64,000 nucleotides of DNA, taken from the NCBI RefSeq assembly GCF_003342675.1, contig NZ_CP031148.1:2356001-2420000 (forward strand). The letters run 5' to 3'. A program made the translations under genes and the position numbers. The notes beneath the pieces are model-generated. The model was not told the DNA's origin and searched no databases. It worked only from the letters and a program-made list of their open reading frames with translations. Each line of letters opens with the position of its first letter. Position 1 is the first letter of the stretch. Shown here one piece after another: positions 20,429 through 21,247 of the stretch. Source of the stretch: Haloplanus rubicundus. GTDB lineage: Archaea; Halobacteriota; Halobacteria; Halobacteriales; Haloferacaceae.

Positions 20429-20480
20429 GCGTCGGCCGAACCGACAGGCCTTAGCCCGCCGCGACGGAACGTCGGGACGT

Positions 20481-20564
20481 GGTGGGATGGCAGAGCGGCC
20501 TATTGCGCCTGCCTTGAAAGCAGGTAGCCTCACGGCTTCCTGGGTTCGAATCCCAGTCCCACCG
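20481..20564 (+). tRNA. tRNA-Ser (anticodon TGA)
   Basis: The 84-nt gene has acceptor stem GGTGGGA/TCCCACC with discriminator G, a long variable arm, T-arm CTGGGTTCGAATCCCAG and anticodon stem CCTGC/GCAGG around loop CTTGAAA. It decodes UCA. No intron or encoded CCA is seen. Copies of its 3' end continue downstream for nearly 450 bp. Confidence 0.95.
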
Positions 20565-21040
20565 CTTCTCCGCGAACGCCAGTGAGCGGAGAGCGGCCGC
20601 TGGGATTCGAATCAGGGAGGGCGCGCGCAACGGAGTGAGCACGTCCGACCGTGGTTCGAATCCCAGTCCCACCGATGGCCGTCGCGCCCTGTTCTGGCGC
20701 GACGGACGAGTACGACTGGCGATTCGAGCCCGACCAGTCGCGCGCAGCGAGCGACGCGAGCGAGCACGTCTGGTTCCGGTTCGAATCCCAGTCCCACCGG
20801 TTTTCACGAGCGCTAGCGAGAGAAAAGCGACCGCTGGCGATTCGAATTCCAGTCCCACCGACTTCTCTCGACTCGCTTCGCTCGTCTCGATCAGTCGGTG
20901 ACCTCCCGCTCGCTCCGCTCGCGGGAGTCCCACCGACGTCTCCCGACGCCCTTCGCTCGTCTCGATCAGTCGGTGACCTCCCGCTCGCTCCGCTCGCGGG
21001 AGTCCCACCGACGTCTCCCGACGCCCTTCGCTCGTCTCTG
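20565..21040. repeat. Ladder of tRNA-Ser 3'-end copies
   Basis: The final 22 nt of the tRNA (20543-20564) recur exactly at 20653-20674 and 20778-20799, and with two differences at 20839-20860. Only the terminal AGTCCCACCG recurs at 20926-20935 and 21001-21010. A degraded T-arm copy lies at about 20598-20616. The last two units form a near-exact 75-bp tandem repeat (period from 20891 to 20966). Spacers contain short inverted repeats such as CGCTCGCTCCGCTCGCG. The 563 bp from 20565 to 21127 hold no convincing protein gene. Repeated integration at the tRNA end is the simplest explanation. Confidence 0.85.
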
Positions 21041-21096
21041 CCGGAACTTCACGTCAACAGTTATCGCGACACACGTCAGCCCACAACAATAATAAT

Positions 21097-21106
21097 CGTT
21101 ATACAT
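21097..21106 (+). promoter_or_regulatory. Box A of the small zinc-finger gene
   Basis: CGTTATACAT lies about 27 bp upstream of the ATG at 21128, inside an AT-rich patch, which fits a leaderless transcript for the small zinc-finger protein. Confidence 0.5.
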
Positions 21107-21127
21107 CTGGATACAAACCATACGTGT

Positions 21128-21247
21128 ATGTCGACAGGCCAGTCGATGACGGCGGCTTCGCACCGGTGTGGCTGCGGCGAAACCTTCGATACGACGGAGG
21201 CGCTCGTCCGGCACGCCCGAGAGGTACACCGGTTCTCCCCGCTGTAG
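21128..21247 (+). CDS. Small C2H2-type zinc-finger protein
   Basis: The 39-residue protein has a single C-x-C...H-x4-H zinc finger (HRCGCGETFDTTEALVRHAR, then EVH). Single-finger microproteins of this type are common in haloarchaea and probably bind nucleic acid or a protein partner. ATG at 21128 lies at leaderless distance from a TATA-like element; a second ATG (MTAASHR) is seven codons in. It stands alone after the tRNA repeat ladder. Confidence 0.7.
   Translation: MSTGQSMTAASHRCGCGETFDTTEALVRHAREVHRFSPL

Follow-up and report, generated by a model that had tools for sequence, protein, structure and literature searches.

The ladder of tRNA-Ser(TGA) ends in Haloplanus rubicundus as part of an apparently undescribed, class-wide family of hairpin repeats at haloarchaeal tRNA 3' flanks

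The ladder of partial tRNA copies behind tRNA-Ser(TGA) in the window (the whole 64-kb stretch of DNA analysed here) appears, on comparison with other genomes, to belong to an undescribed, class-wide family of tRNA-tail hairpin repeats. Structurally, each unit has the same order: a first hairpin (hairpin 1), which begins immediately 3' of the tRNA, is followed by a left arm, then by a variable tip, and last by positions 53-73 of the tRNA, copied in direct orientation. We give an even chance to the reading that the ladder represents a class-wide family of non-coding palindromic elements of ~70-130 bp at tRNA 3' flanks, which are gained by insertion with a 21-bp target duplication. No published description of the haloarchaeal units was found in a search of the open-access literature.

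The tRNA-Ser(TGA) gene lies at 20481..20564 on the plus strand, as do all ladder features given below; it was called by ARAGORN (which ends it at 20565, one base too long) and by RF00005 at 57 bits. The duplicated stretch, positions 53-73 of this tRNA, is 20544-20564. Unit 1 opens with hairpin 1 (20565..20593; fold z=-3.8) at the first base 3' of the tRNA, and the congener alignment shows this hairpin to be kept with paired changes. It continues with the left arm CTGGGATTCGAA (20600..20611), a 12/12 reverse complement of the T-loop and T-stem of the tRNA, and with the type-A tip TCAGGGAG...CGACCGTG(G) at 20612..20653, the core of which is conserved class-wide, and it ends in copy 1 of positions 53-73 (20654..20674; 21/21, or 22/22 with the preceding G). 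Upon folding, hairpin 2 of this unit reaches -46.9 kcal/mol, with z -5.6 as RNA and z -3.5 as DNA. Unit 2 (20675..20778) consists of a spacer hairpin, an imperfect left arm (8/12) and a type-B tip (CCCGACCAGTCGCGCG...CGTCTGGTTCCG), with z=-5.6 for 20714-20799, and is followed by copy 2 (20779..20799; 21/21); in the congener G008, the sequence of unit 2 stands directly 3' of tRNA-Ser(TGA). Unit 3 (20800..20839) contains a spacer hairpin and a left arm (palindrome CTGGCGATTCGAATTCCAG), its tip having apparently been lost, and copy 3 (20840..20860) matches at 19/21. The ladder closes at 20861..21037 with short-type units, 75-bp direct repeats, each terminated by the final 10 nt of the tRNA (AGTCCCACCG, at 20926-20935 and 21001-21010). 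These two terminal units are of a different, shorter kind, made of a small GC-rich hairpin, alone not significant (z = -0.94), and then only the last ~10 nt of the tRNA. Short-type ends resembling them were seen elsewhere behind Arg(TCT) and Arg(CCT).

Most of what the first-pass annotation had described here stands. The last 22 nt of the tRNA (20543-20564) recur exactly at 20653-20674 and 20778-20799, the altered third copy (20839-20860) carries 2-3 changes, the shortened ends start at 20926 and 21001, and the spacings are 110, 125, 61, 75 and 75 bp as claimed. One correction concerns the inverted, T-arm-like GATTCGAA, which is not incidental, being the left arm of a long hairpin of which the T-arm copy is the right arm. 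Long spurious open reading frames cross the ladder (20451-21008 on the minus strand, reading for example WDWDSNPGS, and 20651-21247 on the plus strand) because of its repeats and T-arm sequences, and they could be misannotated as genes.

The copy within the units is sharply bordered and local in origin. Over 163 units from many tRNAs, identity is 0.10-0.33 at positions 49-51, rises to 0.83-1.00 at 53-73 and falls to 0.55 at 74, and the borders at 53 and 73 are sharp with tips other than type A as well. The nine acceptor-side bases agree with the local tRNA at 9/9 in 121/190 units and with other tRNAs in about 0, and the source of a copy was never clearly another tRNA. Units carrying the end of another tRNA were looked for, and none was convincing; the one odd case (L194, which matches Met) probably has an uncalled Met tRNA in between. 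The left arm is reverse-complementary to the T-stem and T-loop of the local tRNA, as with GTTCGATTCTC and GAGAATCGAA at His, or with the arm and copy GTTCAACTCC and GGAGTTGAA of a Lys unit. Among 154 type-A units, an arm pairs with its own copy at 75.6% over positions 57-66, as opposed to at most 65.1% with shuffled partners, and the match between arm and copy weakens with distance from the tip (0.91-1.00 at 54-58, 0.43 at 65). The arm mismatches of the same units are about equally G.T (98) and A.C (95), as expected of a process acting at the DNA level and unlike selection on sense RNA. The tips fall into several families (A-D are labels of this analysis), the commonest being type A, CAGGGAG...CGACCGTGG. 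Tips switch at a single locus while hairpin 1 and the left arm stay unchanged, and hairpin 1 and the tip vary independently. The outer ends of the insert differ between units and are not conserved, unlike those of ordinary transposons.

Units of this kind are frequent behind tRNA genes. We read the flanks of all 45 Rfam tRNA matches of the window's genome and of nearly all in two congeners, genome-wide here meaning all Rfam tRNA matches with loci taken individually, and searched positions 53-73 of each tRNA against its flank of up to 1 kb at a threshold of at least 17/21. A copy of its own 3' end follows 22/45 tRNA genes in the window's genome, and 18/41 and 21/44 in the congeners. The control with the ends of other tRNAs gave 6/1818, 6/1518 and 4/1736 matches in the three genomes (0.2-0.4%), and the ratio of 22/45 to 6/1818 excludes chance. 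The three genomes together hold 80 units. In a set of loci enriched for units, the median distance between the tRNA end and the first copy is 89 nt. When the window's genome (3.77 Mb, 3 contigs) was searched with the ladder, similar sequence turned up 3' of tRNA-Gly(GCC), Arg(TCG), Glu(CTC), Leu(TAA) and other tRNAs; the interior is common to these loci, and each bears the end of its own tRNA.

The family extends through the class. The exact type-A core followed by the start of the T-arm occurs in 217/391 Halobacteria genomes and 67/86 genera, including Natrialba, Halorubrum, Natrinema, Haloarcula, Haloferax, Halobellus, Natronococcus and more, and the reversed pattern, used as a control, gave 0 matches. 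Among 111 examined matches, 104 follow a same-strand tRNA at a distance of 35-300 nt, and the remaining 7 are mostly at contig ends or behind uncalled tRNAs. The type-A core had 0 matches outside Halobacteria in all sampled genomes of the phylum, and a search of 2.9 million viral contigs with the full core also gave 0; half patterns matched these contigs 24 times, at the level of chance and never in the context of a unit. In an Rfam scan, only tRNA reached the cut-off.

Comparison between relatives supports the repeated gain and loss that the first-pass annotation had proposed, as well as its in-place amplification. Across 12 congeners, tRNA-Ser(TGA) has no unit in G002 and G010, a single one with tip A or C in several others, and 3 in the window's genome, and the sequences are joined exactly at the copies. 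In G002, the tRNA is joined directly to the tail that follows copy 3 in the window. Exact pairs of occupied and empty sites were found at Ser(TGA), Gly(CCC) and Arg(GCG), and at Arg(TCG) within 2 nt. Such pairs are what target duplication would leave, but deletion between the 21-bp repeats gives an identical picture, so insertion can only be inferred from them. One locus (L095) has an extra type-D unit exactly within its ladder, and the ladders of three relatives (L101, L103, L110) are without that unit. Exact tandem copies of units are present at Leu(TAA), Glu(TTC) and Val(CAC), and the proximal copies are nearer to the tRNA sequence than the distal ones at 39 loci vs 7 (p=1.8e-6), a gradient that gene conversion with the tRNA could also produce. 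Certain units are old and have remained stable, as at Leu(CAA) in Halorubrum and at Arg(CCT) in several genera. The first-pass annotation had named, as evidence against its own reading, an identical ladder kept across distant genera that never show an inserted element. Half of this is seen: the architecture is found in distant genera, but within a genus the same tRNA may be occupied or empty.

In the insertion reading, a unit would enter at the 3' end of a tRNA gene and duplicate its 21-bp end, leaving the tRNA intact and pushing older copies outward. Tandem duplication would then lengthen the ladder and recombination between the 21-bp repeats would shorten it, and the left arm would be kept matched to the copy by hairpin-templated correction. 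A mobile element with an attachment site of its own cannot account for the presence of one tip over some 46 tRNA types, since the copy always comes from the target; this spread can be explained by target duplication, or by a template switch that re-copies the tRNA end. As to the mobilising agent, our guess is an enzyme that works on single-stranded DNA in its folded state. All 12/12 genomes checked have Y1 (HUH) transposases, which is weak evidence because these are common in haloarchaea.

The stability of some units across a genus or family would also be explained by a function. The two hairpins and the T-arm copy would then form a conserved RNA module of the pre-tRNA that acts in 3' processing, shields the precursor, or serves as a switch by letting the left arm pair either with the T-arm of the tRNA itself or with the copy further downstream. 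The strong folds (z about -5.6 for hairpin 2) are consistent with such a trailer, as are the position of the units, always behind tRNAs and in their orientation, the covariation of the arms with the local tRNA, which at one locus (L148) includes a compensatory change in copy and arm, and the Leu(CAA) unit of Halorubrum, which is kept while the sequence beyond it diverges. We nevertheless hold this function to be unlikely, in view of the fact that about half of the tRNAs have no unit, that occupancy of the same tRNA differs among congeners, and that tips are interchangeable. Moreover, G.T is not favoured over A.C, contrary to selection on a tRNA-sense RNA, and hairpin 2 does not need an exact duplication of the acceptor strand. 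The units could also be produced by replication or repair without a dedicated enzyme, if DNA synthesis at the tRNA 3' end changed its template for a unit elsewhere and returned by way of the universal T-arm sequence GGTTCRAATCC, so that a tip was copied and positions 53-73 were copied again, with the arms matched by quasi-palindrome correction. Such switching agrees with a 5' border of the copy inside the universal T-arm sequence, with arm complementarity that decreases outward from the tip, with tips shuffled between tRNAs, and with the same architecture on unrelated sequence at tyrT of E. coli. Alone, it leaves unexplained both the sharp 3' border at 73 and the class-wide persistence of an exact tip sequence, and we regard it as rather improbable.

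The first-pass annotation had also suggested that the ladder was left by integrative elements that use tRNA 3' ends; these would be viruses, plasmids or islands whose tyrosine integrase takes the tRNA 3' end as attB. A duplication of about 20-22 nt from the T-loop to the 3' end is typical of tyrosine-integrase integration, and the identity block of the units (borders 53-73) does resemble it. This origin has become very improbable, as the spacing is constantly ~90 bp and always within ~70-130 bp, the insert is a class-wide conserved hairpin with neither cargo nor integrase, one insert is common to different tRNAs and never one end, and none of the 2.9 million viral contigs carries it. The one ordinary integrase element that was compared, at Arg(TCT) in Halostagnicola sp. 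A56 (L193), leaves a shorter 13-nt end, lies between tRNA and unit, and parts the one from the other. The earlier statement that no integrase remains at the ladder is upheld, a 70-130 bp insert being too short for one.

More broadly, no transposase, integrase or autonomous partner of the units was found. Cas1-type (casposon or CRISPR-like) integration was considered and rejected, Cas1 being present in only 2/12 genomes and absent in 10/12 that are rich in units or vary in them, including the window's. An intron of the splicing-endonuclease (BHB) type was set aside, as hairpin 2 shows no bulge-helix-bulge by eye; the substrates listed in a study of the H. volcanii splicing endonuclease are only tRNA, rRNA and one 5' UTR (PMC7714728). 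Simple slippage duplication would give an end unit without a copy, and none was seen. In L193 (2042-2900), an integrase-like gene ends just before the 13-nt tRNA-Arg end, which is followed by the unit with no tRNA nearby; an integrative element at Arg(TCT) seems to have separated the tRNA from an old unit. In G002 (L333, C7:1912200-1931800), a ~17-kb element lies between the 5' part of tRNA-Ser(TGA), with its original upstream sequence, and a complete tRNA-Ser(TGA); it has a tyrosine integrase near its right end and genes resembling type I restriction-modification, named from reading translations only. The same congener carries about ten tRNA genes in 1.5 kb on a 429-kb secondary contig (L332, C1:401628-403110), as on large viruses or plasmids.

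In each of three haloarchaeal genomes, roughly one tRNA gene in two is followed by units, and their commonest kind is present in most genera. If mobile, they represent a non-coding element that targets an essential gene and leaves it intact; if functional, they add a new layer to the biology of tRNA precursors. They also offer a possible general context for the long-known, isolated RtT repeats of E. coli, and they can mislead the annotation of att sites, tRNAs and genes.

Compared with known systems, the sites of tyrosine recombinases in tRNA genes (reviewed in PMC8371274) share with the haloarchaeal units the duplication from T-loop to 3' end, and a 22-nt tRNA duplication marks a prophage of Haloquadratum (PMC3119063). 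The units differ in having no integrase or cargo, and in being one type of insert at many tRNAs with an end that is always local. The nearest described small repeats of haloarchaea are the PATEs and SMRs of Haloquadratum, which are transposase-free, palindromic, short mobile repeats, the SMRs being 80-110 bp; SMR-A elements insert into palindromes, and repeat-mediated deletions are known in Haloquadratum (PMC3119063). PATEs and SMRs make no target duplication, and the targets of SMR-A are IS605-type elements and PATEs rather than tRNA genes (PMC3119063), whereas the units described here have an exact, tRNA-specific duplication of 21 bp. IS605-type palindromic ends or terminal inverted repeats are a further mark of PATEs and SMRs. 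The architecture itself has a counterpart in the RtT repeats of E. coli tyrT (Rfam RF00391, rttR), which in K-12 read as 178-bp tandem units behind the tRNA, each ending in a 19-nt copy of its 3' end. As in the haloarchaeal units, an inverted arm, set off from the tRNA end by a spacer, matches the copy (9-10/11 nt), 89 nt before it, with structured sequence in between. The RtT repeats differ in being shown here at one tRNA locus (tyrT-tyrV), in a copy that starts later in the T-loop and includes CCA, and in their unrelated sequence. The RtT covariance model (RF00391) detected no haloarchaeal unit, having no match in L036, L037, L031 and L073 even at E up to 1, and gave 4 matches in E. coli (L316) as the positive control. 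The haloarchaeal units thus appear to work like RtT without being members of RF00391 by sequence. It is possible, if doubtful, that both belong to a new category of element or process common in principle to archaea and bacteria, in which non-coding hairpins enter nearly any tRNA 3' end, duplicate exactly the stretch from T-arm to discriminator of the tRNA concerned, and keep their own inverted arm matched to it.
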